Positions 3,278 to 34,907 of a stretch of 39,998 bases of DNA are shown one piece after another. Source of the stretch: a virus. Under the pieces are notes generated by a model. That model was given only the letters and a program-made list of their open reading frames with translations. It was not told the DNA's origin and made no database searches. Where the stretch lies: the IMG/VR virus record IMGVR_UViG_3300046683_000574, positions 1-39,998 of that record, one strand, 5' to 3'. The translations under genes were made by a program, and so were the position numbers. Position 1 is the stretch's first letter. Every line of letters starts with the position of its first letter.

Positions 3278-3651
3278 TCCCAGCCTCCGGCAAGTTGCTC
3301 AATACGACCGAGCGTCACCTTGCCGATGCCATCAACGGCGAGCCACCAATCCTTGCCCTTGGCGCGGATCGCCTCCGGCGACAAGCAGTCGAGACGGCCC
3401 TCGTAGAACTCACAAAGCACCCAGGCTTTGCCTTGGTTCGGCTCCTCGCTCCAGCCATAAAGTTTCATTTGACGATCAGCCTCATCCATCTTCCGCGCAT
3501 GACTGTGCATGCGATCGCAGCACGCTTGGCAAAGGAATGTGTGCAGACGCCAATGGCTGCTGCTGATAGTTTCATCCATCACCGGCGAACCACCGCAGTG
3601 CTCGCAAGGAATGTGCAGACAGCCGTCTTTGACTTCCAGGGTGCCGCTCAT
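3274..3651 (-). CDS. Zinc-finger plus helix-hairpin-helix-like protein
   Basis: 125 aa. The ATG at 3651 overlaps the TerL stop (ATGA), which decides the start. Residues 16-45 hold CEHC and CQACC pairs about 25 residues apart with nearby histidines (HWRLH, HSHA), a plausible treble-clef or zinc-ribbon fold. The last 35 residues read SPEAIRAKGKDWWLAVDGIG and continue KVTLGRIEQL, resembling a helix-hairpin-helix DNA-binding motif. A DNA-binding role in packaging, or a degenerate HNH-type nuclease, would fit the position after TerL. Neither is proven and no catalytic His-Asn-His set is clear. Confidence 0.65.
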   Translation of the reverse strand: MSGTLEVKDGCLHIPCEHCGGSPVMDETISSSHWRLHTFLCQACCDRMHSHARKMDEADRQMKLYGWSEEPNQGKAWVLCEFYEGRLDCLSPEAIRAKGKDWWLAVDGIGKVTLGRIEQLAGGWE

Positions 3652-5114
3652 ACCTCCACCTCCTGGCCAAGATCCATCCGCATTCCCACCTTGTCGTAGA
3701 TCCCGCCGCTCATCCCCGAGCCCACCCCCAGCCCCTGCTGGCAGAAGGTGAGGTTCAACGCGTCGGCATAGTCGCAACTCGGCAGGCCGCGTGCCCGCAT
3801 GGAATTCTTGTCCTCGACCTTCAACCGGCCGTCGCTCAGGAACGCATAGCGCGGAGCGACCAAATCGTCCCTCAGCCGCTCGTGACGCGGCAGCCGAACC
3901 GCACGCGACGACAGCCACTCCTTGCACCGCACCCACAGCTCATCGCGCAGCCGCGCATAGCGCCCGGTGGTCGATGGGCTCTCCGACACGTTGACGCCGA
4001 GAATGGGCAACCCCTGCTCGTTCAGTCGGTCAACAACCCCCGCCCCAATTCCGATCACGTCGATGCAGATCAACGCCGGCTTGGTGATCTGCGCGTCCCA
4101 TTCCGCCTTGATCGCGCCGGCCAGCATCATGGTGTCGAGCTGGTGGAAGCTGCGCGGCATCTCAGGCACCACGTTGCCCCGCCGCTTGATCAGGACGCTG
4201 GCATCAGTCCCGAACCTGGCGACATCCACACCCCAGATCTCGGCTGAGCCGTCCATCGGGGTGTCACGCACCATCGCGCCGTCCACCAACTCGGCCGGGA
4301 TCAGCGTATCAGCATCAGCCAGCGGGAATTCCCCGAGAACTCTGACCCTGTACGCATTGCTGTCGGCGCCATACCGGCCAGCGATCTCGTCGGCAAAGTC
4401 CTGCGTCACCCGCGGGCTGTCCTGGTAGCCCACCTTCATGCAGAACCAGCGGTCTCTTTCCAGCATGAACGCCTTCCAGAAAAATCCGGATGACCGCGTC
4501 GGATTGCCAATGAGCAGCGTGATCGCCCCCGCACTGCTCATGCTCCCGCTCGCCGCCTCGAACACCTGTTCCGGCACGCCGGACGCCTCGTCCACCACCA
4601 GCAGGATGTTGTCCGAGTGCAGGCCGGCAAGGGCTTCAGGGGTCTCGGGCCTGCTGGTCCTCGCCGTAATAAAACACTCCGGGTTGCTCTTCAGCGTGAT
4701 GTGGTCGGAGGTCACGTGCCACAGCTCGCGCCACGCCCCCGGCAAACGATCGAGCCATTTGATCACCTCGGGGTACAGCGCATCGAACAACTGCGGGCTG
4801 CTCGGCGCCGTCATCGCCAGCTTGAACGGGGCGCGGGTGTTGGAGAACCACACGGCCACCCACGCCGCCAGCGCGGTCTTGCCGGGCCCGTGGCAGCTGC
4901 GCACCGCGATCCGCGTGTGCCCCCGCGCCAACGCCCGCAGCACCTTCATCTGCCAGTCGTCAGGTTCGGCCAACAACACTTCCCGAACAAATGCGATCGG
5001 CGCCCGGGCATACCGCGCCAGGCTCACCTCATACGGATTGGGCGCGCGGGCAATCGCCTCCGCCCAACTTGGTGGCATAGTCTCTGCATAGTTAGGGGCG
5101 GCGGTGTCGCTCAT
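3648..5114 (-). CDS. terL: Terminase large subunit
   Basis: 488 aa. The packaging motor: an N-terminal ATPase pumps DNA into the prohead and a C-terminal RNase H-like nuclease cuts the concatemer. Walker A is CHGPGKT at residues 74-80, and Walker B is the hydrophobic run ending in LLVVDEAS. The nuclease half has the expected acidic motifs: WGVDVARFGTD, then ICIDVIGIG, then a late DYADAL. The length is normal for the family. The ATG at 5114 is chosen because it overlaps the upstream stop as ATGA; an in-frame ATG 18 bases earlier would overlap more. The downstream gene also starts in an ATGA overlap, so translation is coupled. Confidence 0.95.
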   Translation of the reverse strand: MSDTAAPNYAETMPPSWAEAIARAPNPYEVSLARYARAPIAFVREVLLAEPDDWQMKVLRALARGHTRIAVRSCHGPGKTALAAWVAVWFSNTRAPFKLAMTAPSSPQLFDALYPEVIKWLDRLPGAWRELWHVTSDHITLKSNPECFITARTSRPETPEALAGLHSDNILLVVDEASGVPEQVFEAASGSMSSAGAITLLIGNPTRSSGFFWKAFMLERDRWFCMKVGYQDSPRVTQDFADEIAGRYGADSNAYRVRVLGEFPLADADTLIPAELVDGAMVRDTPMDGSAEIWGVDVARFGTDASVLIKRRGNVVPEMPRSFHQLDTMMLAGAIKAEWDAQITKPALICIDVIGIGAGVVDRLNEQGLPILGVNVSESPSTTGRYARLRDELWVRCKEWLSSRAVRLPRHERLRDDLVAPRYAFLSDGRLKVEDKNSMRARGLPSCDYADALNLTFCQQGLGVGSGMSGGIYDKVGMRMDLGQEVEV

Positions 5115-5419
5115 GGCAATTCCGGCAGCCATGGTTTGGTGCGGACCAGAAAATCAAGAAAGTCCCGCAATGTCGCTGCGCCCAGCGGCGTCAGGTCAAA
5201 AGCGGTCTCCCAACTCTCGGCTTTGGTCGGGCCGCCAGAAGGTTGGATGCATACCGTGATCGGCCAAACCTGCGCCTCACGGTCAGCGGCGATGTCCAGC
5301 ACATAGACATTGAGATCAAGCGGGCCGCCGCCTTCCACAGAGCGCACCAACAGGTGCAGATCGAGCGACATCTGCCTGGCCGATAACGGAAGCTTCTCCA
5401 GTTCGTCGCTATCGTTCAT
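5111..5419 (-). CDS. Hypothetical protein upstream of TerL
   Basis: 102 aa, start ATG 5419 in a TAATG overlap, stop overlapping the TerL start. Acidic at the N-terminus (MNDSDELEKLPLSARQ), with alternating hydrophobic residues (LDLHLLVRSV, LDLNVYVLDIA) suggesting a beta-rich fold and a C-terminal helix (LGAATLRDFLDFLVR). Not recognised. It sits between a small HTH protein and TerL, a place where TerS-type or terminase accessory proteins occur, but nothing in the sequence shows that role. Confidence 0.65.
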   Translation of the reverse strand: MNDSDELEKLPLSARQMSLDLHLLVRSVEGGGPLDLNVYVLDIAADREAQVWPITVCIQPSGGPTKAESWETAFDLTPLGAATLRDFLDFLVRTKPWLPELP

Positions 5420-5691
5420 TACCCCTCCTGCAGTTCAGACGGCAGTGGCGGCAGCGTGTGGGCGCCAGGCGGGAGTGGACGCGTGCGCGGCTCTCTCGAC
5501 GGCGGTGGCTCTGGCTCTGCTGGCACGCGACCACGCGGCCCCAGGTGCAATGTGCGGGTTTCGCTGGTCACGCTGTATTTGCTGCGCCCGAGATGCTTGG
5601 CGATCTGCGCCGGCCCCATGCCGTTGCTCCACATCTGGCGCAGCAACGTACGCTCCTCGTGGCTCCAGGGGAGACTGGGCGTGGCTGGCAT
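5419..5691 (-). CDS. GcrA-like small HTH protein; candidate small terminase
   Basis: 90 aa, start ATG 5691. Residues 9-50 form a helix-turn-helix with the pattern W-S-x-E-E-R-x-x-L-x-x-x-W, then GPAQIAKHLGRSKYSV, matching the layout of the N-terminal domain of GcrA, the alphaproteobacterial cell-cycle regulator that binds methylated promoters and sigma70 RNA polymerase. The last 40 residues are Pro/Arg-rich and probably disordered. Its position just before TerL, separated by one gene, would also suit a small terminase that recognises packaging DNA. Which role it has cannot be told from sequence. The phage also encodes two methyltransferases. Confidence 0.7.
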   Translation of the reverse strand: MPATPSLPWSHEERTLLRQMWSNGMGPAQIAKHLGRSKYSVTSETRTLHLGPRGRVPAEPEPPPSREPRTRPLPPGAHTLPPLPSELQEG

Positions 5692-6884: not shown

Positions 6885-7088
6885 TCACTGCGGCCGCAGT
6901 AGGCATTTTTCCACGATCTTGCTGAGCAACTCGGTGCGCGCCTCGGTGTTGCTCTCATAGAGCCAGACCAACACCCCCAAGAAAAGCACGTTGAGCACGA
7001 TCATCAGCAGGAAAGCTGGCGGCAGCACCCGGATCAGACGCTCCGAGATCGACGCCAGCAGCCCGTTGGCGCGCTCCTGCTCAGTCAC
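6885..7088 (-). CDS. Single-pass membrane protein coupled to the PEP-CTERM gene
   Basis: 67 aa. The GTG start at 7088 overlaps the TGA of the PEP-CTERM gene (GTGA), so the two are translationally coupled. About 20 cytoplasmic residues precede one transmembrane helix (PPAFLLMIVLNVLFLGVLVW), followed by a polar tail (YESNTEARTELLSKIVEK). The topology resembles small phage holin-like or spanin-like proteins, but no family is recognised. The coupling suggests a joint role with the exported protein made just before it. Confidence 0.7.
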   Translation of the reverse strand: MTEQERANGLLASISERLIRVLPPAFLLMIVLNVLFLGVLVWLYESNTEARTELLSKIVEKCLLRPQ

Positions 7089-7720
7089 GCACGCCGCTGA
7101 CGCACCAACCCCAACCCGAGCAACCCGACGCCCAGCAGCGCCAGGCTCGCTGGCTCCGGGACTGCATTCGCGCTGAATGTGCCGCTGACATTGGAGGTGA
7201 ACGATCCAATGCTCGTGCCGACAATCGCAAACCCAGGCGCGATGTTGGTGAACGCCAACCCCACCGCCAACGGCGAAGACAGCGACGTGATGACATCGCT
7301 GGTGAACGCTGCCAGATCAGGCGGCGCTCCGACCGCTAGCGCCCCACCAGTCCCCGTCCCGAACACCAGATCAGTGAACGATCCACTGAGGAAGTTCGTC
7401 CCCGTCATCCCCGCGCCACTGAAGATCGAGAACGATCCGGCATAGTGCTGGGCAGCACCGCTACCCAGTGGCTGGGCGGCGTCAGTAGACGTAGCGTTGA
7501 GGTCAAAGAATGCAGCGCCACCGGCGCCGTTCTGTATCTGTGTGATGGTGATTGCCGCATCCGTAGCACTCAGTGTCGTCTGGTCCTGCGCTGCGTTCTC
7601 CGTCGCTGTAATCGGCGTGCCACTGGACTGGCCGAACACCAGGATCGTGTCGGCATAGGCCGGTGCGTGGAAGAAGCAGGCCCCAGCCACAATCGTGGTA
7701 ATGCGCAGTGCGTGTTTCAT
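7085..7720 (-). CDS. PEP-CTERM sorted exported protein
   Basis: 211 aa. An N-terminal signal peptide (MKHALRITTIVAGACFFHA, likely cleaved after AYA near residue 23) and a complete C-terminal PEP-CTERM tail from about residue 187: VPEPASLALLG, a hydrophobic helix, then QRRA. In PEP-CTERM hosts such tails are cut by exosortase (EpsH family) and the protein is sorted to the envelope or extracellular matrix. The middle is rich in Gly, Ser, Thr and Ala with no catalytic motif, and looks beta-rich. The ATG at 7720 has AGGGG eight bases upstream. The gene lies between phage genes in their orientation. This cargo is very unusual for a phage and probably came from the host. Confidence 0.85.
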   Translation of the reverse strand: MKHALRITTIVAGACFFHAPAYADTILVFGQSSGTPITATENAAQDQTTLSATDAAITITQIQNGAGGAAFFDLNATSTDAAQPLGSGAAQHYAGSFSIFSGAGMTGTNFLSGSFTDLVFGTGTGGALAVGAPPDLAAFTSDVITSLSSPLAVGLAFTNIAPGFAIVGTSIGSFTSNVSGTFSANAVPEPASLALLGVGLLGLGLVRQRRA

Positions 7721-7881: not shown

Positions 7882-8391
7882 TTACTTCGGCTGTGCGTGC
7901 GGCGGCAGCGGCATACCAGGGCGCAGCGACGGATCGACGCTCACATACTTCCACCCCAGCGATGGGCTGTAGCAAAGCATCCAGAACGTCTGTGATGGCA
8001 GCGCGTTATCGATGGTCCCACCCTGGCCCCCTGGGAGAGTATTATCCGGTCGCGCTGGCGTGCCAGGCATCGGCCCACCCCCAGGATGCGGCACGCCTGG
8101 CAGCACGTTACCGGCATGCGGCGGCAGGCCAGGCGACGGCCATATCGTCCCCGGGGCGATCGGCAACGCGTTGTCGGGATGGACCGGAACAATCGGGTTG
8201 CCCCCAGTCGGCGGCGGCCACGTACCAGGCGGCGCCGGCGGCAGCACGATCGGGTTGGACGGCCGATCACTGCTGATCCCATACCCAGGATCCACATCGC
8301 CCTCGACGCCAGGCAGCTCATTGCCGGGATATCCGCCGCTCATCCCCTCGACGTTCAAATAGCCGCCCATGACGTGAACTCTGGCCATCAT
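7882..8391 (-). CDS. Proline-rich repeat protein
   Basis: 169 aa, start ATG ATG at 8391 with GGAG five bases upstream. Residues 20-130 are irregular Pro/Gly repeats built on an N-x-L-P unit (NELPG, DNALPI, GNVLPG, DNTLPG, DNALPS) with intervening PPxxPGTW-type segments. The C-terminal 40 residues differ (FWMLCYSPSLGWKYVSVDP) and look like a small folded or anchoring module. No signal peptide or membrane helix. Pro-rich repeats of this kind suggest an extended linker or surface protein; the function is unknown. Confidence 0.65.
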   Translation of the reverse strand: MMARVHVMGGYLNVEGMSGGYPGNELPGVEGDVDPGYGISSDRPSNPIVLPPAPPGTWPPPTGGNPIVPVHPDNALPIAPGTIWPSPGLPPHAGNVLPGVPHPGGGPMPGTPARPDNTLPGGQGGTIDNALPSQTFWMLCYSPSLGWKYVSVDPSLRPGMPLPPHAQPK

Positions 8392-8736: not shown

Positions 8737-8811
8737 TCAGGTGACAGCGGTGATCAGCAGCACGACCAGCGCCAGAAGCAGCCATGCCAGGGCCAGCGCA
8801 CCGTGGCTCAC
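8737..8811 (-). CDS. 24-residue membrane peptide coupled to the methyltransferase
   Basis: GTG at 8811 overlaps the methyltransferase TGA as GTGA. The product is essentially one transmembrane helix (ALALAWLLLALVVLLITAV). Tight coupling and strong hydrophobicity support it. Very small size and lack of a known family limit confidence. Confidence 0.4.
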   Translation of the reverse strand: MSHGALALAWLLLALVVLLITAVT

Positions 8812-10403
8812 TCCGCAGCCTCCGCGAACAGGTCGGCCATGCGCTCGTCCTCAGGATCACCGGCGGGCGCATCCACGAACAGCGGCGCATCGTCCCGGCA
8901 GCGCTCCATCGCCATCTCGGTGTAGGCGGTGTTCAGCTCGATCCCGATCGCATCGCGTTGCAGCCGGTCGGCGCACAATAAAGTCGTTCCGGCCCCGGCA
9001 AAACAATCCAAAACTACACAGGGCACGACATCGCCATTGTGGTCGCAGCCTGCGCGCCAGCCGGTGGTAGCTGTCTCGGAGTTCCAGGTTTTTGCGTAGC
9101 TACCACTGCGAACGCCAGCAGCTTTGTTCGGCGCATAATCTGTGATGACGACCTCGACCGTGCCGTAAATCTGCTCATCGAAACGGTTGTCCAACCCCAA
9201 CACTTCCTTCAGCTTTGCCCACTGTTCCGGCATTGGCGTGTTAAGACCAAGCTCCCAATTTCTCACACAGCCGGTTAAGCCACCCGTGGCGCTTGGAAAG
9301 TGAACCGCAAGATTATTAGTCGAAATGCCGAGGGCTTCCCGTGATTGCCGCAGATATGCCCCCAGAGCCTCGCAATCGACTGGCGCCCGCTTCGTAGACA
9401 AGCGCGTCGGCACGTTCTCCATGTTGCGCTCCGTCACCCGCACCCACGGCTTGCCGCACTGGCTGCAACAGCCGCGCTCCGACGTGCCAGCCTTGATGCA
9501 CCGCTCAGCCAACGCAGGCGGGAATGTCGCAAAGTGCGCCTCGCTGTACGGCGCCGTGGCGATCGTCCAGACATTGCGGCAATTCCTGCCTGCTGGGTTC
9601 AGTTCCACAGACGCAGCACTGCCGCCTTGGCTGATCTTGGCGCCACGCTCGCCCGTTATGGTGTTACTGCCAGCGTAGCCGTTGACCGGCGTCCTGACCC
9701 TCTCCAGGCTCGCCGCAAGGTGCGCCTCCCGCACCGCATCCGCATCGTAATAATACCGCGCGCTCTTGGTCAGCAGAAACACATGCTCATGCGCCGATGT
9801 CGGCCGGTCCCTGCAACTCTCCGGCATCGGGTTCGGCTTGTGCCAAATGATGTCGCTCCTCACCCACCACCCATCCGCCTGCAACGCCAACGCCAGCCGC
9901 GCCGGCATCATCAGCAGGTCTTTGGGCTTGGCGTGCTTCGTCGTGTTCAGCGCCGTATTCGACCGATAGTTGTTGAACACACCAGCCTCTGGCCGGTTCG
10001 TGCCGAAGTTGCCTGCCGGGCTTCCCGCGTAACTATCCCCCATATTCACCCAGCACGTCCCATCGGGGCGCAGCACACGCCGCACCTCACGGAACACCCC
10101 AACCATCGTCGCCAGATACTCGTCAGGCGTCGCCTCCAACCCGATTTGCCGGTCAACGCGCGTGGCGCCGCACTGGCATTCTCGATGCGGATGGCCCTGC
10201 TGATAGCTACGCCCGACACGCTGTGACGTAGCGCTAGCATCCGGGCGAAATGCATGATCGCACCCAGCATCCCCGCCATCCCACTGCGCGGTGCCGTAGT
10301 CACGGAGCCCATAGTACGGGGGCGACGTTACAACTGTATGCACGCTGTCGGCCGGCAGCGTGGCCAACACATCCCGACAATCACCCGCCAGCAGCCGGAT
10401 CAC
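8808..10403 (-). CDS. DNA methyltransferase (N4-cytosine/N6-adenine type) with inserted HTH
   Basis: 531 aa. A beta-class amino-methyltransferase: catalytic TSPPY at residues 26-30 comes first and the SAM-binding FAGAGTT at about 467-473 comes last, the permuted motif order. It should methylate phage DNA at a specific sequence. Between them lie a Cys pair (CCSQCGKPW) and, at about residues 345-405, an XRE-like helix-turn-helix (YLRQSREALGISTNNLAVHF and following) that may add DNA recognition. Other Cys residues near 90 (CQCGA) could form a second metal site. The start is GTG 10403, giving the usual MIRLLAGD opening and overlapping the upstream stop as GTGA. Confidence 0.9.
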   Translation of the reverse strand: MIRLLAGDCRDVLATLPADSVHTVVTSPPYYGLRDYGTAQWDGGDAGCDHAFRPDASATSQRVGRSYQQGHPHRECQCGATRVDRQIGLEATPDEYLATMVGVFREVRRVLRPDGTCWVNMGDSYAGSPAGNFGTNRPEAGVFNNYRSNTALNTTKHAKPKDLLMMPARLALALQADGWWVRSDIIWHKPNPMPESCRDRPTSAHEHVFLLTKSARYYYDADAVREAHLAASLERVRTPVNGYAGSNTITGERGAKISQGGSAASVELNPAGRNCRNVWTIATAPYSEAHFATFPPALAERCIKAGTSERGCCSQCGKPWVRVTERNMENVPTRLSTKRAPVDCEALGAYLRQSREALGISTNNLAVHFPSATGGLTGCVRNWELGLNTPMPEQWAKLKEVLGLDNRFDEQIYGTVEVVITDYAPNKAAGVRSGSYAKTWNSETATTGWRAGCDHNGDVVPCVVLDCFAGAGTTLLCADRLQRDAIGIELNTAYTEMAMERCRDDAPLFVDAPAGDPEDERMADLFAEAAE

Positions 10404-10567
10404 CAGAACCGGCCGCCACCAAATAGCAGCAGCAGCACGATGATCAGCAGCACAAGCCCTATTCCTCCAAAGCCGCCGTATCCATACGCCCCCGACCGAT
10501 AGCCGTAGTACCCCCCGAACCCGCCAAACAGCACGATCAGGATGACAACCAACAGCAGCAGGTTCAT
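10400..10567 (-). CDS. Small Gly/Tyr-rich membrane protein
   Basis: 55 aa from ATG 10567, which overlaps the upstream stop (ATGA). Two hydrophobic helices (LLLLVVILIVLFGG and GLVLLIIVLLLLFGG) flank a Gly/Tyr loop (YYGYRSGAYGYGG). Similar small proteins occur widely in proteobacteria and phages without known function. It is coupled both to the membrane protein before it and to the methyltransferase after it. Confidence 0.6.
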   Translation of the reverse strand: MNLLLLVVILIVLFGGFGGYYGYRSGAYGYGGFGGIGLVLLIIVLLLLFGGGRFW

Positions 10568-10755
10568 CTCACTCCAGGCCCCTGGATCATGAACCCAAAT
10601 ACCGCCCACCCAAGCAGAAACAACAGAACAAACAGCCACACGCCGCTAAACCGAACATACCCAGGATTGTTGGCATACGGACCCCAATACCCGCCAATGT
10701 GAAACACTATCGCCAACAACATAATCAACCAGAATATGAAGCCAATCGTCATCAT
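10564..10755 (-). CDS. Small membrane protein
   Basis: 63 aa, ATG ATG at 10755/10752 with AGGTGAC just upstream. Two transmembrane helices (GFIFWLIMLLAIVFHIGG and WLFVLLFLLGWAVFGFM) around a polar loop with aromatic residues. No family recognised. Two adjacent tiny membrane genes before a methyltransferase could form a holin-like pair, but nothing proves this. Confidence 0.55.
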   Translation of the reverse strand: MMTIGFIFWLIMLLAIVFHIGGYWGPYANNPGYVRFSGVWLFVLLFLLGWAVFGFMIQGPGVR

Positions 10756-11602: not shown

Positions 11603-12196
11603 CTAGTAGTCCTGACGCTCGACAAGTGCGTCGAATGGGTAGACAACTTCGCGTAGTTGTCCAAGGAAGAGGATGCCGACGACGGCGTTTTCCTCCTGCA
11701 GTGCGAGCACCACCCCTGGCAGCCCTGCGAACGGCCCCACGCGAGGCGCCACAGCGTCGCCCAGGTGCCACTGGCTGGTTTCTGGCTGTTGGGCAACGGC
11801 CAACGCCTGAGCGGCCTGCACGGCCTCCACAGCGCCCGCGTTGACCCACTGGATCTGATTACCGTGTTTCAGCACTGATCGGACGCCTGGTGTTTCGTAG
11901 ATGGGCCGCCAGCTATCGCGGCTGTTGTGGTGGACGAAGAGATATCCTGGCCAGAGCGGGGCGAGGACGATGTGGAGCAGCGTTGGGGTGGCGCGATCGG
12001 GTCGGCGTGCGGGGTAGCGTGGGAGGAAGCAGCGATAGCCGCGGCGTTGCAGGTTGGTGTCGGCCCAGGCTTCGGCTTGTGGGTGTGTGGTTGCGACGAC
12101 CCAACCGGCGCGGGGGGAATTGCAGCCGCACCCGAGGTCACCGACTGCGGGTTCGGGTGTAGCTACGCACTGTGGGGTGTTGGCGTCAAGCGGCAT
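11603..12196 (-). CDS. NusG/RfaH-like transcription antiterminator
   Basis: About 197 aa. An NGN domain starts near residue 30 (GWVVATTHPQAEAWADTNLQ) and contains GYRCFLPRY and PLWPGYLFVH, the usual RNA-polymerase-binding layout. A C-terminal KOW-type barrel has LGDAVAPRVGPFAGLPGVVL. NusG paralogues such as RfaH load on RNA polymerase at special sites and suppress termination; here it could drive the long late operon. I chose ATG 12196 because AGGAGG lies 11 bases upstream; a GTG at 12217 inside that sequence is the alternative. The first 30 residues, with CGC near residue 24, are not part of the NGN fold. Confidence 0.85.
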   Translation of the reverse strand: MPLDANTPQCVATPEPAVGDLGCGCNSPRAGWVVATTHPQAEAWADTNLQRRGYRCFLPRYPARRPDRATPTLLHIVLAPLWPGYLFVHHNSRDSWRPIYETPGVRSVLKHGNQIQWVNAGAVEAVQAAQALAVAQQPETSQWHLGDAVAPRVGPFAGLPGVVLALQEENAVVGILFLGQLREVVYPFDALVERQDY

Positions 12197-12233
12197 CAGA
12201 CGCTGAGCCTCCTCCACAACCTATGGTTAGGGT

Positions 12234-15264: not shown

Positions 15265-15705
15265 GTGGAAAAGAAGGATGTTGGCGACCGGCTGCGCGAG
15301 TTCCGCGAACGGCTCGGCATGACGCAAGGCGCTCTGGCGGCTCAGGTCGGCGTCAACGTCATGACGGTGACGCTATGGGAGAACAAAAAGAACCGCCGGA
15401 AGATGAGTAACAAGTACGTCTACAAAGCCGCCGAAGCGCTTAAGATACGAGTGTCTGACCTACTCGGCGCGGATGACGAGCCACAGCAGACACGCATCGG
15501 TGAAATGCCCATGACGATGACGCATACCGTGGACGAGGTTCAATGGCTGCGGATGTATCGGCTACTTCCGGAAAGGCTCAGATTGGTTCAGTTCGCGCAG
15601 CTCGCGGAGTGTGTGGCTCGCAGCAATGCTAATCAGACGGGCAGCCATGATACGAGCATCGATAGCGCGACCAGACAGAGCACTATCGTGAGCATGATAG
15701 GCTAG
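15265..15705 (+). CDS. CI-like XRE repressor
   Basis: 146 aa. GTG 15265 with GAGG seven bases upstream. The XRE helix-turn-helix occupies residues 8-70 (LREFRERLGMTQGALAAQVG, then VNVMTVTLWENKKNRRK). The C-terminal half is short, lacks the S24 Ser/Lys protease motif and is polar, so it is not a LexA-type self-cleaving repressor. It is transcribed away from the Cro-like gene and is the best candidate for the immunity repressor. Confidence 0.8.
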   Translation: MEKKDVGDRLREFRERLGMTQGALAAQVGVNVMTVTLWENKKNRRKMSNKYVYKAAEALKIRVSDLLGADDEPQQTRIGEMPMTMTHTVDEVQWLRMYRLLPERLRLVQFAQLAECVARSNANQTGSHDTSIDSATRQSTIVSMIG

Positions 15706-15795
15706 CCTGCGAATATTTTCGCGCAGTCTGCTATCTGAACCTTGCGTTAACGCATTACTCGATGTAAGGTTGCTTCCAGTTTGTGGAAGCGCGAA
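15706..15795. promoter_or_regulatory. Leader with GCGTTAACGC palindrome
   Basis: Non-coding gap after the repressor. TGCGTTAACGCA (15743-15754) is a perfect 12-bp palindrome; GCGAA/TTCGC forms a small hairpin just before it. A second CGTTAACG lies at 16017-16024. The CGTTAA core also occurs in the 15223 operator, so these may be repressor sites controlling the plus operon. Confidence 0.45.
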
Positions 15796-16269
15796 ATGCT
15801 TATTGTTACCGTACGGCAAAACGACGGCCTCCTTTCCCCAAATCGTCGGTGTCCCGTGCAAGGGGGCCGAGCCGATAGTGCTTCTGGATCGTCGCGGCTA
15901 GGCAATTCTGGCGGGATAGGCGCGCCCATAGAGAGTGTAGCCCCGTCATGGGCATGTCATGCAAGTGGCACAGACGCATCATCGTTACACGCCATACGGG
16001 ATACCAAATCACACGCCGTTAACGCTTTGTTCCTGAGGGAATTGCCGCATGGCGAGCGCTCTGTAACAGAGAGTTACCGCGCCCAGGCCCTCGATGAGCT
16101 GCTGGCCTCGATCCGTGAATACCGCGCCGCCAGCCCAGCCTTCCGCCCCTACTGGCGCAAGCTGGCCAGGCACGACATCGCCCGGTTCAGGCGCGACTAC
16201 CTGATCCCCGAGCGGGCCGCGTTCGAGGCGGCCGTGCGCCGCAGCCAGCAGCGGAGGGCCGCGGCGTGA
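15796..16269 (+). CDS. Small phage protein with a basic C-terminus; start uncertain
   Basis: The convincing coding part is the C-terminal 65 residues: LDELLASIREYRAASPAFRP is followed by WRKLARHDIARFRRDYLIP and a tail RAAFEAAVRRSQQRRAAA. The first ATG in frame is 15796, but residues 1-85 look non-coding in composition; TTG 16027 or 16042 are alternatives. The region before 16040 may be leader DNA. The stop overlaps the next start (GTGA). The tail is nearly the same as that of the mini-gene at 16817. Function unknown. Confidence 0.5.
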   Translation: MLIVTVRQNDGLLSPNRRCPVQGGRADSASGSSRLGNSGGIGAPIESVAPSWACHASGTDASSLHAIRDTKSHAVNALFLRELPHGERSVTESYRAQALDELLASIREYRAASPAFRPYWRKLARHDIARFRRDYLIPERAAFEAAVRRSQQRRAAA

Positions 16270-16820
16270 AATGGCGTGAATGCTCCCACGAGGAGAAAAT
16301 CAACGTCCTGCACCAACTGGTGCATCAAACCAGAATTGCCGATGCGGATCTGTCGCTGATCATGGCGGTCCTTGGGTACGATATAAGTGAATTGGAAATC
16401 TTCAATGCCAACGGTCGACCTGGCGCGGTCGTAATTTACGGCAGCAAAACCGACGCTGACTTATTTGCGCGACTGGAGAAGGCACAGGATGTCGCGACGA
16501 TAGAGGTGCTGCGGCATCTCGCGCCGCAGGATCTACTTTTCGAATTACTCAGGCGTATCAACGCAAAGCTGCTTGCTGAATGCCACCCTCTCCGCCGTTG
16601 CGATTATCCTGATGAGTTCTTCGCTGATCTGGAGATGATCCACCAATGGTGCCGTGAGAATTGTCCGCCCGAGTTGCAGGATAAGTTTCCGCATCGCCCG
16701 TGGCCAGAGTGGCTCCCAAGCCATCTGCAACAAGCGCCCAATGCTGGCATGGTCGGCTTAGCAGAACCGGTGGTGCGTGTAGCTACGACACTGTTCTCAC
16801 AACCGGAGCGCAAGCCATGA
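16266..16820 (+). CDS. Hypothetical early protein
   Basis: 184 aa. GTG 16266 overlaps the upstream stop (GTGA) and its TGA overlaps the next ATG. Acidic, mixed helix/strand, with no recognised motif; Cys residues near 107, 114, 132 and 136 (HPLRRCDYPDEF; HQWCRENCPPEL) are too scattered to call a metal site. Its lower GC and different codon choice compared with neighbours suggest a separate origin. Function unknown. Confidence 0.65.
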   Translation: MKWRECSHEEKINVLHQLVHQTRIADADLSLIMAVLGYDISELEIFNANGRPGAVVIYGSKTDADLFARLEKAQDVATIEVLRHLAPQDLLFELLRRINAKLLAECHPLRRCDYPDEFFADLEMIHQWCRENCPPELQDKFPHRPWPEWLPSHLQQAPNAGMVGLAEPVVRVATTLFSQPERKP

Positions 16821-16865
16821 ACGCCTGCCCCGATCTGCTCGCGGCGCTGAAGCTGCGCCAGCGCG
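16814..16865 (+). repeat. 52-bp direct repeat, copy 1
   Basis: Identical to 17214-17265, exactly 400 bases apart. It spans the start region and first 16 codons of the mini-gene at 16817. Confidence 0.9.
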
Positions 16866-16915
16866 CCGCGTTCGAGGCCGTAGTCGCGCGGCAGCAGAGG
16901 AGAGCGGCAGCATGA
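16817..16915 (+). CDS. Chimeric 32-residue mini-gene
   Basis: ATG 16817 overlaps the upstream stop and its TGA overlaps the next ATG. The first 16 residues (MNACPDLLAALKLRQR) are identical in DNA to the start of the gene at 17217. The rest (RAAFEAVVARQQRRAAA when the shared R is included) matches the end of the gene at 15796. It therefore looks like a recombination product of two neighbours that kept its frame and coupling. Whether it is functional is unknown. Confidence 0.6.
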   Translation: MNACPDLLAALKLRQRAAFEAVVARQQRRAAA

Positions 16916-17220
16916 CCAACCTCGAGGTCTGTGACCGTTGCTGCGGCACGGGGTGGAGCGGTCATCCGGACGACCCGGCTGGCCGCTGCAGTCAGTGCGA
17001 CGGACGCGGCGGCATGACAGCCGATCCGGTGGCCCACCTCGAAGCGGCCATGGCCATGATGCGCAAGATCAACCGCAAGGTCGACGAGCTCCTGGCGCCC
17101 CTCGAACGCGAGATGACGATCATGCAGTGGCCTGCTGAATATCGCTCGATCATGTGGCAAGCGGTCCTGCTCGGCGCCAAGCAACGCATGGAAGACGTGG
17201 CCAGCGAGGCCGCGCCATGA
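16912..17220 (+). CDS. DnaJ-type zinc-finger protein
   Basis: 102 aa, ATGA-coupled at both ends. Two CxxCxGxG-like motifs (CDRCCGTGW and CSQCDGRGG) about 19 residues apart form a DnaJ-like zinc finger in residues 7-36. The remainder is a helix (AMAMMRKINRKVDELLAPLE and following). Small phage proteins of this type are common in early operons; they may bind nucleic acid or protein partners. Confidence 0.7.
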   Translation: MTNLEVCDRCCGTGWSGHPDDPAGRCSQCDGRGGMTADPVAHLEAAMAMMRKINRKVDELLAPLEREMTIMQWPAEYRSIMWQAVLLGAKQRMEDVASEAAP

Positions 17221-17265
17221 ACGCCTGCCCCGATCTGCTCGCGGCGCTGAAGCTGCGCCAGCGCG
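17214..17265 (+). repeat. 52-bp direct repeat, copy 2
   Basis: Exact copy of 16814-16865, spanning the start of the 89-aa gene at 17217. Confidence 0.9.
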
Positions 17266-17486
17266 ACCTGGAGTTGGACGCCGTAGCCGTGAAATCCCGC
17301 ATCGAGGAAATCGCGGAACTCATCGACATGATCGAGCGACCGCAGCGCAAGCGGGGCCGCCCACCAGGACCACGGGCCGTGTTCACCCCCCGCCGTGTCA
17401 ACCCGCCGCTGCACGTCGAGGGCGGCATCCACGCCATAGAGCCCGACGACGAGCTGCCGTTCCAGTCAGACGCCCCCGGCGCGTAA
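17217..17486 (+). CDS. Coiled-coil protein with AT-hook-like motif
   Basis: 89 aa, ATG 17217 in an ATGA overlap. Residues 10-42 form a long charged helix (LKLRQRDLELDAVAVKSRIE and following). Residues 47-53 read KRGRPPG, an AT-hook-type minor-groove motif. The C-terminus is Pro/Asp-rich. The N-terminus was copied into the mini-gene upstream. A DNA-binding accessory role is likely but not shown. Confidence 0.65.
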   Translation: MNACPDLLAALKLRQRDLELDAVAVKSRIEEIAELIDMIERPQRKRGRPPGPRAVFTPRRVNPPLHVEGGIHAIEPDDELPFQSDAPGA

Positions 17487-17499
17487 CAGGGAGACCAAC

Positions 17500-17769
17500 A
17501 TGAGCCTGACAGGCCAAGGCAAAGCAGCAGTGGCGCAACTGGCTGCCCGGTTCGTGTTCGACGAGCAGGCATCCGCTGCCAGCCAGCAGGATCTGGCCGA
17601 GCGCATCGAGGCAGCGATCAGCGCATTCAAAGCCTCTCAGATGCAGCAGATCATCGCCCACACGCTACGGCGGGAACTGGAGCGGCACATTGAGGCAGCC
17701 ATCGATGGCTGGCATCGCGACCACCCGCCGCAACCCGCAACTCCAGAGCCACAGGACACACCAGCATGA
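17500..17769 (+). CDS. Small helical early protein
   Basis: 89 aa, ATG 17500 with GGGAG upstream. Ala/Gln-rich helices (AAVAQLAARFVFDEQASAAS, then AERIEAAISAF) with a His-rich segment (GWHRDHPPQ) and a Pro-rich end. No family recognised. Coupled to the next gene (ATGA). Confidence 0.6.
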   Translation: MSLTGQGKAAVAQLAARFVFDEQASAASQQDLAERIEAAISAFKASQMQQIIAHTLRRELERHIEAAIDGWHRDHPPQPATPEPQDTPA

Positions 17770-17984
17770 GCATCAGCAACGACTACCAAAACCTGGCAGA
17801 CCGCATCGCCGGATACGCCAACCGCCTCGAGCCCATCATGCCGAGCGTGGCAAAGCACCTCGCCGCCAATCTGCTGGCCCTGGCCGATCAGGTGAAGCAC
17901 CTGGAGGTCGTGCCGCTGCGGCTGGACAGCCCCGAGATCAGACTCGGATTTCATAAACTCCGGGAGCGCCACGATGCCGACTGA
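17766..17984 (+). CDS. Small helical early protein
   Basis: 72 aa, ATGA-coupled to the gene before. Entirely helical by composition (NLADRIAGYANRLEPIMPSV, then KHLAANLLALADQV). Acidic and small; may form a bundle with neighbours. Overlaps the next gene by 11 bases. Function unknown. Confidence 0.55.
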   Translation: MSISNDYQNLADRIAGYANRLEPIMPSVAKHLAANLLALADQVKHLEVVPLRLDSPEIRLGFHKLRERHDAD

Positions 17985-18291
17985 CCAGCTACCGCCGGCA
18001 GATGAGCTGTTCGACGTGCGGGATAAGATCAAGCAACTCGCATCCCGCGAACGCGTCCTAACCGCGCTCATGATTGCTGACCCTTCTGCACGCACCGGCA
18101 ACAGCCATGCCGTTGAGGTCAAGGAGGTCGAGACAACCCGGACAGATCTCAAAGAGATGCGCGCCTGTCACGCCGACATTGTCGAGCAGTTCACGTTCCC
18201 GGTGAAGATCACCCGCGTTGAACTGCGCGGCGTCAATGAGGACGGCGAACTGGTGTCGCTGCGCCGTAAACCCGAGAAGGCCACAACATGA
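17974..18291 (+). CDS. Hypothetical early protein
   Basis: 105 aa, ATG 17974 inside the end of the previous gene. Charged helix (DELFDVRDKIKQLASRERVL) followed by a more beta-like region (FPVKITRVELRGVNEDGELV). Sits immediately before the RecT-like gene with an ATGA overlap, so it may be a recombination or ssDNA-binding accessory protein; this is positional inference only. Confidence 0.6.
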   Translation: MPTDQLPPADELFDVRDKIKQLASRERVLTALMIADPSARTGNSHAVEVKEVETTRTDLKEMRACHADIVEQFTFPVKITRVELRGVNEDGELVSLRRKPEKATT

Positions 18292-19199
18292 GCCAAGCAC
18301 TGACCACCACCGAGCCGGTATCCGCGCAAGCGCTTGAGCATGTTCTGGGCACCGGCGACCTGTCGAAGCTGACCACGCAGCAGCGCGTCGAATATCTGGT
18401 CGCAACCTGCAAATCGCTCGGCCTCAATCCATTGACGCGGCCTATCAGGTTCCTGTCGCTGAATGGTCAGATCCAGATTTACTTCACGCGCGACGGCACC
18501 GACCAGCTTCGCTCATCGCGCAACATCACGTTGCACGTTGTCGATAAGTCGATAGATGCCGGGGTGTTCTCGGTCACGGTGCGGGCAAGAACCAAGGATG
18601 GGCGCGAGGACGAGGATATCGGCGCAGTCGTCCTGCCTGCTTCGGGCGATAGCCGCGCCAATGCGTTGATGAAAGCAATTACGAAAGCGAAACGGCGCGT
18701 GACGCTCTCGATCTGCGGGCTCGGCCAGACTGACGAGAGCGAGCTGGACACGATGCCCGGTGCGCGGGTGTTCGATGCCGAGGACGACGTTCCAGTTGCC
18801 CCGATCCGCACCGCGAGGGACGCCCTGAACGATACGATCCCGCTGCGCCCTGCCGCCGCCGCCACGCCCCGCGCAGAGCGCAAGGTTGACCCAACGCCCT
18901 ACGAAGCAGGACCGCCTGCGTCCGACCGCAAGTCGTGGGCACAGTGGGCGCAGAGCCTGGAACTTGCCGACCGCGATAGCAAAGACACCGCGGAAATCGG
19001 CAGGATCATCGCTAAGTCCGAGATTGCGGAGATCGTGCGGTTGGCACAGGAGGGCGAGCCGTCGCCAGCCAAGACCCGCATCGTTGCTGCGTTCCGCAAT
19101 CTTGAGGCGCGCTACCTGGCCGATCCGCCGCAGCCACCGGATGCCGACGACCTGGACGAGGTGGTGATCGCTGGGGAAGCGAACCTCGCGGCAGGCTGA
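18288..19199 (+). CDS. RecT/Redbeta-like single-strand annealing protein
   Basis: 303 aa, start ATG 18288 (ATGA overlap). The core (residues 30-165) has LTTQQRVEYLVATCKSLGLN, then IYFTRDGTDQLR, the RARTKDGREDEDIG loop and NALMKAITKAKRRVTLS with ICGLGQTDE, a pattern I associate with RecT/Redbeta-type phage recombinases that anneal ssDNA. The C-terminal 130 residues are Pro/Ala-rich with a helical end, as in many such proteins. No adjacent RecE/Exo nuclease is seen; the VRR-NUC protein of the opposite operon is the only candidate. A Rad52-like fold is an alternative. Confidence 0.65.
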   Translation: MSQALTTTEPVSAQALEHVLGTGDLSKLTTQQRVEYLVATCKSLGLNPLTRPIRFLSLNGQIQIYFTRDGTDQLRSSRNITLHVVDKSIDAGVFSVTVRARTKDGREDEDIGAVVLPASGDSRANALMKAITKAKRRVTLSICGLGQTDESELDTMPGARVFDAEDDVPVAPIRTARDALNDTIPLRPAAAATPRAERKVDPTPYEAGPPASDRKSWAQWAQSLELADRDSKDTAEIGRIIAKSEIAEIVRLAQEGEPSPAKTRIVAAFRNLEARYLADPPQPPDADDLDEVVIAGEANLAAG

Positions 19200-19216
19200 C
19201 GCGCCTGATACAATTC

Positions 19217-19250
19217 GGGCGGGAGCAGCCCTCGGAAGCCGCTCCCGCCC
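19217..19250 (+). terminator. GC-rich hairpin after the recombinase gene
   Basis: A perfect 10-bp stem (GGGCGGGAGC at 19217 with GCTCCCGCCC at 19241) with a 14-base loop lies between the recombinase and the next gene. No U-tract follows (TACCCCC), so it may be a processing or attenuation site rather than an intrinsic terminator. Confidence 0.45.
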
Positions 19251-19278
19251 TACCCCCAACCGAGAGGAAACCTCGATC

Positions 19279-19479
19279 GTGGCTGACAACATCGAAAGCA
19301 GAACCGCCGTTCTGGAGCAAATCTCCCGTAGCACCGAGGCTATCCTCGGCGAAATGCGCACCGACGTTCGCGAGATACGCGTTCAGCAGGACCGTGACTT
19401 CCGCTGGTTACTCGGTCTTTACCTGGCGGGCACGGCCGCGATCCTCGGCGTTATGGCGCACGGGTTCCGTTGGCTATGA
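19279..19479 (+). CDS. Small membrane protein, holin-like topology
   Basis: 66 aa. GTG 19279 with AGAGGAAA nine bases upstream. A charged N-terminal coiled coil (residues 1-40: ENIxx-type ISRSTEAILGEMRTDVRE) precedes one C-terminal transmembrane helix (LLGLYLAGTAAILGVMAHGF). This layout occurs in small phage holin-like or signal-anchor proteins. With no other holin evident it is a lysis candidate, but evidence is only topological. Confidence 0.6.
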   Translation: MADNIESRTAVLEQISRSTEAILGEMRTDVREIRVQQDRDFRWLLGLYLAGTAAILGVMAHGFRWL

Positions 19480-19513
19480 GCGCCGCCTCATCCACTGTGA
19501 TTGGATCGATGTG

Positions 19514-19729
19514 ATGGACATCCTCATTAGCCTCGGCATCGCCCTCCTGTTGTTGGCGGTGATTATCGGCGGCCCTGCCTGGGTGGTGTACCAAGCCTGC
19601 ACCGGGCCCGCTCGCCCGATGGAGAGGATACTGGCGATCGAGGCTCACTACCGCGCCATCGCGCGGTACAAGCTTGAACAGCGCCACGCCCGTCGCCCAG
19701 TCGGCTCCTACTTCGGCCCCTACTACTGA
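19514..19729 (+). CDS. Small membrane protein ending the plus operon
   Basis: 71 aa from ATG 19514. A longer frame back to 19394 exists, but the transmembrane start (MDILISLGIALLLLAVIIGG) marks the natural beginning. One N-terminal helix is followed by a basic cytoplasmic tail (IARYKLEQRHARRPVGSY). It overlaps the end of the convergent 714-aa gene by 7 bases. Function unknown; possibly lysis-related given its neighbour. Confidence 0.55.
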   Translation: MDILISLGIALLLLAVIIGGPAWVVYQACTGPARPMERILAIEAHYRAIARYKLEQRHARRPVGSYFGPYY

Positions 19730-33739: not shown

Positions 33740-34416
33740 CAGAAGCACACCGCGACTTCCGCGCGCAACGGTGCGCCGCTGTAGTCCGATTGCTGTTTTG
33801 CCAAGTCCGCCCGTGTCACTGCCTGCTGAAACAGCGCATCCATCTGCGTCGCGCGGTCATCATCGAGCGCCCAGATCGCACCCTGTTTGATCACCCCGTA
33901 AAGGTAAACGGAATAGAGGTTCTCAAGAATCGGGTTGGTGTCGGTGGGGAGGATTAACGGCCTCGGCTTGCGATACCAGCCCATTAGCACGCTCTGCGGC
34001 ACCCAGGACGGGTCTGGAGGGCTTGGCACCTGGGGGTGAGGCAGGAACTCGATGCAATTCGCCACCAGCCTGTAGGCGACGCTGGGGCCGCTCAGCGCGG
34101 TGATGGCGTCGTAGGGCTGCCATCCGATCGGAGCATATTGGTTACTCCAATGTCCGCTCCACTCGTCCTTCAGCACGAGCAGCTCGCCGGTGGTGTTGTC
34201 CCTGATGCTCTCCATGGTGGCGAAGTCACTCGGCAGCGCGATGTAGGGCGCGTCGATCGGCTGCACCGCAGACGCCACCTGGCAGCGCGCGCGCAGGGTC
34301 TCGGCCAGCTCGGTTTCCACTGCCAGCACCCAGCCCGGCATGACGCCATTGGTCAGGATGTCCTGCCGGTTCAGGTAGCTGGCCACGTCGGCCTGGAGCT
34401 GCGCGAGCGATGCCAT
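33739..34416 (-). CDS. Head-tail adaptor protein
   Basis: 225 aa from ATG 34416, coupled to the Ig-like gene (TGATG); a longer frame from 34494 lies inside that gene. LAQLQADVASYLNRQDILTN, the ELAETLRARCQ helix, DAPYIALPSDFATMESI, and late segments LYSVYLYGVIKQGAIWALDD and MDALFQQAVTRAD fit the phage adaptor family that seals the portal and connects the nozzle. The length and position downstream of capsid genes agree. Confidence 0.75.
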   Translation of the reverse strand: MASLAQLQADVASYLNRQDILTNGVMPGWVLAVETELAETLRARCQVASAVQPIDAPYIALPSDFATMESIRDNTTGELLVLKDEWSGHWSNQYAPIGWQPYDAITALSGPSVAYRLVANCIEFLPHPQVPSPPDPSWVPQSVLMGWYRKPRPLILPTDTNPILENLYSVYLYGVIKQGAIWALDDDRATQMDALFQQAVTRADLAKQQSDYSGAPLRAEVAVCF

Positions 34417-34907
34417 CAGGGGGCCGTCACCACCACGCCGTTGCTCGGCGGCGCTGCGGTGGTTCCCAGCGCATTGGTGGCGCTCACGACACACGTTGCC
34501 GTCTTGCCAACGTCATCCGCCACGACAGGCAGCGATGCCGTGCCGCCTGTTATGTCGGCGCCATCCAGCTGCCACTGATAGGCGTAGCTGTGCGGCTCTG
34601 CTTGCATGCCCTCCCAGTTGCCCATGGTGCAGGTGAGTTCGCTGCCGACTTGCTGCACATGCGGCACATCGACATTGACCGGGGGTGTGGTGGGCACCGG
34701 GTCAGGACCACCCCCCTCCGGTGCATCGATGTCCAGCACCGGCTCGTATTGGCTGCTCTCCAGCACCGCGCCGGCGGCCGCAGTCTCCACGCCCTGCGCG
34801 AGCGCCATATCGCCGGCAGCGCTGAGAGCCTCTGCCTCGGGATACAGACGTATCAACAGCACCTGGTCGAGGCCCTCGACCAGCACCGGCTCGATGGTGC
34901 CGCTCAT
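34416..34907 (-). CDS. Ig-like domain protein, paralogue of its upstream neighbour
   Basis: 163 aa, ATG 34907 in ATGA overlap. The N-terminal 60 residues (VEGLDQVLLIRLYPEAEA, then MALAQGVETAAAGAVL) match residues of the 122-aa protein encoded just upstream. A Pro-rich linker leads to a C-terminal Ig-like beta sandwich (SELTCTMGNWEGM, SYAYQWQLDGADITG, ATCVVSATNALGTTA). Ig-like domains on phage particles commonly bind carbohydrate at the host surface or mucus. It may decorate the capsid or tail. Confidence 0.75.
   Translation of the reverse strand: MSGTIEPVLVEGLDQVLLIRLYPEAEALSAAGDMALAQGVETAAAGAVLESSQYEPVLDIDAPEGGGPDPVPTTPPVNVDVPHVQQVGSELTCTMGNWEGMQAEPHSYAYQWQLDGADITGGTASLPVVADDVGKTATCVVSATNALGTTAAPPSNGVVVTAP

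Follow-up and report, generated by a model that had tools for sequence, protein, structure and literature searches.

PEP-CTERM proteins with constant ends and exchanged bodies recur in uncultured phages

A PEP-CTERM gene and its membrane partner among phage genes

The window analysed here, a virus record of 39,998 bases, is a phage, with terminase, capsid, scaffold, tail and internal virion proteins among the products of its minus-strand genes. The relatives with which it is compared are IMG/VR contigs, that is, viral contigs that are predicted and not isolated. Two overlapping genes lie between the methyltransferase and terminase genes, with the following features.

8808..10403, minus strand: DNA methyltransferase, upstream (PF01555, 155 bits)
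7882..8391, minus strand: proline-rich repeat protein, 169 aa, directly upstream; homologs lie upstream of the PEP-CTERM gene in most relatives
7085..7720, minus strand: PEP-CTERM protein, 211 aa, ATG start, TGA stop (PF07589, TIGR02595; 39 related viral loci)
7652..7720, minus strand: putative signal peptide (residues 1-23) with a cleavage site predicted behind AYA (by inspection; the hydrophobic N-terminus is kept in the alignment)
7166..7651, minus strand: predicted exported body, residues 24-185, all-beta in the AlphaFold2 model
7088..7165, minus strand: PEP-CTERM tail, residues 186-211, with AVPEPASLALLG, a helix and the basic end VRQRRA (PF07589, alignment, model)
7085..7088, minus strand: GTGA, in which the start codon of the membrane gene overlaps the stop codon of the PEP-CTERM gene (read from the sequence)
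6885..7088, minus strand: one-helix membrane protein, 67 aa (hydrophobic segment, related loci, linkage)
5419..5691, minus strand: GcrA-like regulator, downstream (PF07750, 28.3 bits; cut-off 26.9)
3648..5132, minus strand: terminase large subunit (phrog_2, E 2e-40; relatives in the rhizobial phage phiM5)

The 211-aa protein belongs to the PEP-CTERM class. It scores above the curated cut-offs of both Pfam PF07589 (29.5 bits against 20.7, E 7e-7, residues 186-209) and TIGR02595 (24.1 bits against 16), and the matches cover its final 24-26 residues. The C-terminus runs from Pro-Glu-Pro through a hydrophobic helix, placed by the AlphaFold2 model at residues 192-210, to a basic cluster (VPEPASLALLGVGLLGLGLVRQRRA). 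At the DNA level, the PEP-CTERM search found a single instance in the record (33.4 bits, E 2.8e-9) and none in 14 control genomes. The N-terminus, MKHALRITTIVAGACFFHAPAYA followed by D, has by inspection the layout of a Sec signal peptide, which is conserved in relatives. An earlier note on this DNA had read the protein in the same way, as one with a signal peptide and a PEP-CTERM tail. No exosortase gene was found in the phage record, and a promoter scan gave a signal not above the shuffled background.

In the AlphaFold2 model (mean pLDDT 74 over the whole protein), an all-beta body is followed by the C-terminal helix. A fold search with the modelled protein against solved and viral structures gave no significant match, and the body alone matches no NCBIfam family. 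In NCBIfam the whole protein scores best against PepA (NF033554), the floc-associated PEP-CTERM protein; at 42.1 bits against a cut-off of 80, and with the likeness confined to the tail, membership of that family was rejected. No homologs of the body were found in plasmids. In 385 sampled alphaproteobacterial genomes, a small sample searched without a positive control, the whole protein gave matches to the tail only, and the body alone (bodies A and B) gave none. A host origin of the body was rejected on this absence from the plasmids and from the same small, uncontrolled genome sample.

The 67-aa protein is strongly hydrophobic in a single segment (Kyte-Doolittle value 2.76), and its ORF overlaps that of the PEP-CTERM protein by the four bases GTGA; the earlier note had described the same two ORFs and the same overlap, and both are found in the sequence. 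In relatives, the overlap of the PEP-CTERM gene with the next gene is usually 4 or 1 bases. Nearly every close relative has the one-helix gene, which either adjoins the PEP-CTERM gene or is separated from it by one small soluble gene, and this frequent insertion explains the apparent variation of the downstream gene. At this point there are two small soluble genes without relation to each other (75 and 62 aa), alternating or together, as in L005 (3789-4016), L008 (10636-10824) and equivalent positions. Among contigs found by the PEP-CTERM protein alone, the one-helix gene lies no more than 300 bp downstream in about 29 of 36, a set that includes some near-identical contigs. Two forms of the one-helix protein can be told apart by sequence; intermediates connect them, and a cysteine close to the end is conserved.

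The order of the two genes is reversed in L093 and L094, where the one-helix gene precedes the PEP-CTERM gene. Furthermore, the one-helix gene occurs in contigs lacking any PEP-CTERM gene (for example L016, L020, L021 and L078), and it is missing from the most distant relatives. Because the one-helix gene also occurs alone, the pair is linked but separable, and not obligate. The description of the membrane protein as a coupled partner thus holds for most contigs, but not for those in which either gene stands without the other.

Recurrence, selection and exchange of bodies

Loci with the PEP-CTERM gene numbered 13 in viral contigs by one scan and 39 by a profile scan, and at least 39 contigs of uncultured viruses have the gene flanked by phage genes. 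In other contigs its identity is 88-100%, and the phage genes to either side stand in the same order. A chimeric assembly at 7-7.7 kb, which the earlier note had named as grounds for refutation, is excluded by this recurrence of the gene and its neighbours in many independent contigs. The typical order in relatives is methyltransferase, proline-rich protein, PEP-CTERM protein, an optional small gene, one-helix protein, GcrA, terminase and portal. Pro-Glu-Pro is invariant in all 30 aligned relatives, whose identity to the window protein falls to about 41%. With median pN/pS values of 0.34 (body) and 0.23 (tail), both parts are under purifying selection, which is stronger on the tail. The gene is thus conserved beyond chance. 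It is not essential, since some phages of the group are without it.

Uncultured phages encode PEP-CTERM proteins repeatedly, as a class. A search with a strict DNA pattern of the tail picked out 34 viral contigs, and in every one of these that was translated the motif falls in frame at the C-terminal end. When bodies alone are compared, they fall into about 12 unrelated clusters, five of which have several members. Several of the PEP-CTERM contigs carry clear phage genes by PHROGs, a check made on contigs other than L133, L148, L150 and L154. The earlier suggestion that phages rarely if ever carry such cargo agrees with the annotated collection: among 50,697 phage records there is no convincing homolog of the 211-aa protein (the only match, to phage PhiPA3, is weak at E 0.3), and the tail alone gave no match there, in a weak test with a low-complexity query of 32 residues. 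It does not fit the uncultured viral contigs, in which PEP-CTERM genes recur with many bodies. The search for the pair in phages had a positive outcome, both the PEP-CTERM protein and the linked one-helix protein being recurrent.

Two coupled PEP-CTERM genes occur in each of L143, L135, L139, L151 and L058, and L061 (3-2110) has three in succession with three unrelated bodies. In the same slot of related phages, the signal peptide and tail retain about 66-87% DNA identity and the body between them is replaced. Over the stretch that starts 609 bases upstream and ends with the signal peptide, L143 and L139 match at 66.6% of DNA positions, and in the tail again at 87%; their bodies do not match and fall into separate clusters. 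Between the second genes of L139 and L135, identity is 80.6% upstream and 79% in the tail, around unrelated bodies of different length, and the second gene of L143 has the body type of L132 and L144. The converse is seen in L145 and L156, which have a common body (88% DNA identity) and different signal peptides. In these comparisons the ends act as a constant frame, in which the body is an exchangeable insert.

In one lineage (L064 and L065), the upstream sequence, first codons and tail of an L006-like gene are kept and the body is lost. The remnant (L065 2371-2574; L064 1233-1436) has its first codons in frame with the tail (MKRAVLGVGLLGLGLVRPRRVS), the whole body being absent. The deletion joint in L065 is a 15-base imperfect repeat. 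As a general driver of body exchange, a start-tail repeat of this kind was rejected; it is present only in genes with one signal-peptide allele.

Proposed display on the host surface and alternative roles

In bacteria, substrates of the PEP-CTERM/exosortase (EpsH) system have a signal peptide, a body without recognisable homology, Pro-Glu-Pro, one helix and a basic C-terminus (Haft et al., 2006, PMC1569441), an architecture also seen in the phage protein with its putative signal peptide. Such substrates have been treated as an envelope system of bacteria. Given the same architecture, export and cleavage by the host exosortase are the natural reading of the phage protein, and exosortase-dependent display is probable. 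The phage genes differ from the bacterial ones in lying in a fixed slot near the terminase or methyltransferase, in having no exosortase gene in the phage, and in exchanging bodies between constant ends. No description of phages with PEP-CTERM proteins, or with the exosortase route, was found in the open-licence literature.

We propose that the cassette serves phage surface display through the PEP-CTERM/exosortase route of the host, which is the best explanation as a whole and to which we assign a probability of about 0.5. After infection, the signal peptide would take the PEP-CTERM protein across the inner membrane and the C-terminal helix would keep it anchored there, until the host exosortase cuts the protein and passes it on. 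The beta body would end in the outer envelope or exopolysaccharide, and the small membrane protein is probably an accessory encoded on the same transcript. The surface of the infected cell could thereby be changed, for example by masking receptors against adsorption of competing phages or of the phage's own progeny. On this proposal the ends would be constant because the host machinery reads them, and recombination of the body would let one slot serve for the display of different proteins in different phages. A payload that varies between constant ends is what one would expect of proteins whose partners at a surface also vary, and suggests that phages dress the host surface with interchangeable proteins.

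As to purpose, the exclusion of competitors or the masking of receptors is our first-choice hypothesis, held tentatively. T5 Llp and P22 SieA are phage envelope proteins of superinfection exclusion or receptor blocking, small, exported or membrane-bound, that alter the host envelope. The phage PEP-CTERM protein may work in a similar way, a likeness of proposed role, with no relation in sequence or fold found, and we know of no superinfection-exclusion or receptor-blocking phage protein with a PEP-CTERM tag. More guardedly still, there may be a widespread phage system of exchangeable host-surface proteins, with fixed export and exosortase ends and recombination-swapped bodies in fixed slots, each phage having one or two, frequently together with an accessory membrane protein, and driven by competition between phages for adsorption.

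A different use of display would be to alter the exopolysaccharide matrix or the aggregation of the host, the protein joining the matrix and keeping susceptible cells together or altering the capsule. The PEP-CTERM system is indeed tied to exopolysaccharide (PMC1569441), and PEP-CTERM proteins are required for floc formation in several bacteria, according to PMC9850573 and the work summarised in PMC9012009. The phage body, however, is unrelated to that of the floc protein PepA, and a lytic phage would have little time to change a matrix; we consider this use unlikely.

Rather improbable is a lysis pair, in which the one-helix protein would be a holin or an inner-membrane spanin and its PEP-CTERM partner would destabilise the outer membrane. 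A small membrane protein encoded by an overlapping gene upstream of the terminase would suit such a pair, and the ORFs examined elsewhere in the window gave no recognisable endolysin, holin or spanin. Neither protein, however, matches PHROGs or a holin or spanin family in Pfam or NCBIfam (many holins being too diverse for such detection), phages with tandem PEP-CTERM genes, except L058, have no such membrane gene beside the pair, and a lysis protein would hardly have its body swapped for an unrelated one or lost.

An even slimmer chance is given to host-derived cargo without a role in the phage, repeatedly picked up from bacteria and passed around. Bacterial PEP-CTERM proteins are numerous and diverse (PMC1569441) and the gene is lost in some phages, but the gene is under purifying selection and keeps its position and its coupling in dozens of contigs, which speaks against cargo, as does the failure to find bodies A and B in the bacterial genome sample, searched as it was without a positive control. 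Least probable is a decoy that would occupy the host exosortase and stop display of host PEP-CTERM proteins, some of them perhaps phage receptors: the tail is conserved more strongly than the body, as a decoy would have it, but a conserved folded body would be needless, and here the body is under purifying selection and modelled as a beta domain.

If the PEP-CTERM protein is processed and displayed as proposed, phages would re-dress the infected-cell surface through host sorting machinery, with a changeable payload and a constant address label, and PEP-CTERM proteins, whose roles are mostly unknown, would gain a clean assay in phage adsorption. A host-range rule would also follow, in which phages with the cassette infect only exosortase-positive bacteria.

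Host, phage relatives and other features of the window

GcrA is an alphaproteobacterial regulator, and the GcrA-like gene close downstream of the cassette indicates that the host is probably alphaproteobacterial. Exosortase is present in 52 of the 385 sampled Alphaproteobacteria, so suitable hosts exist; that it is found in only these, and that some phages of the group lack the PEP-CTERM gene, count against the display reading. Terminases 45-54% identical to that of the phage occur in six of the 385 genomes, two of which (G056 and G387) have exosortase. In the five genomes inspected, no PEP-CTERM gene lies in the stretch beside such a terminase. This prophage route to the host was rejected, two exosortase-positive genomes being too few to mean anything.

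The earlier note had also offered lysogenic conversion of the host surface. This is not supported, because no tyrosine integrase (PF00589) was found in five near-complete genomes (the window and four relatives), a search whose scope did not extend to serine integrases or plasmid-like lysogeny. Among described phages, the phiM5-type podoviruses of rhizobia (MF074189) and Rhizobium phage RHph_N3_2 have a related capsid protein (about 32%), and the terminase of Sinorhizobium phage phiM5 is 49% identical to that of the window; in contrast to these shared genes, no convincing homolog of the PEP-CTERM protein was found among the annotated phages. Judging by the type of contig and the rhizobial relatives, we guess that these phages live in soil.

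Several further features of the window were noted. The proline-rich protein (7882-8391), which has no family match, contains repeated P-x-x-x-LP motifs (PDNALP, PDNTLPG). Two overlapping small proteins at 10400-10755, with two hydrophobic segments each and similar proteins in relatives, are candidate holins, since no lysis gene was recognised. A block of plus-strand genes (15265-19729) interrupts a genome that is otherwise minus-strand; it includes a Cro/CI-type HTH gene at 15265-15705, and most of its other ORFs examined have no family match. The phage encodes a NusG-like transcription factor at 11603-12217 (PF02357, 43.8 bits). The protein encoded at 34416-34907 contains an Ig-like stretch (LTCTMGNW...YAYQWQ), and such a stretch is also found near PEP-CTERM genes in L058, L061 and L093.
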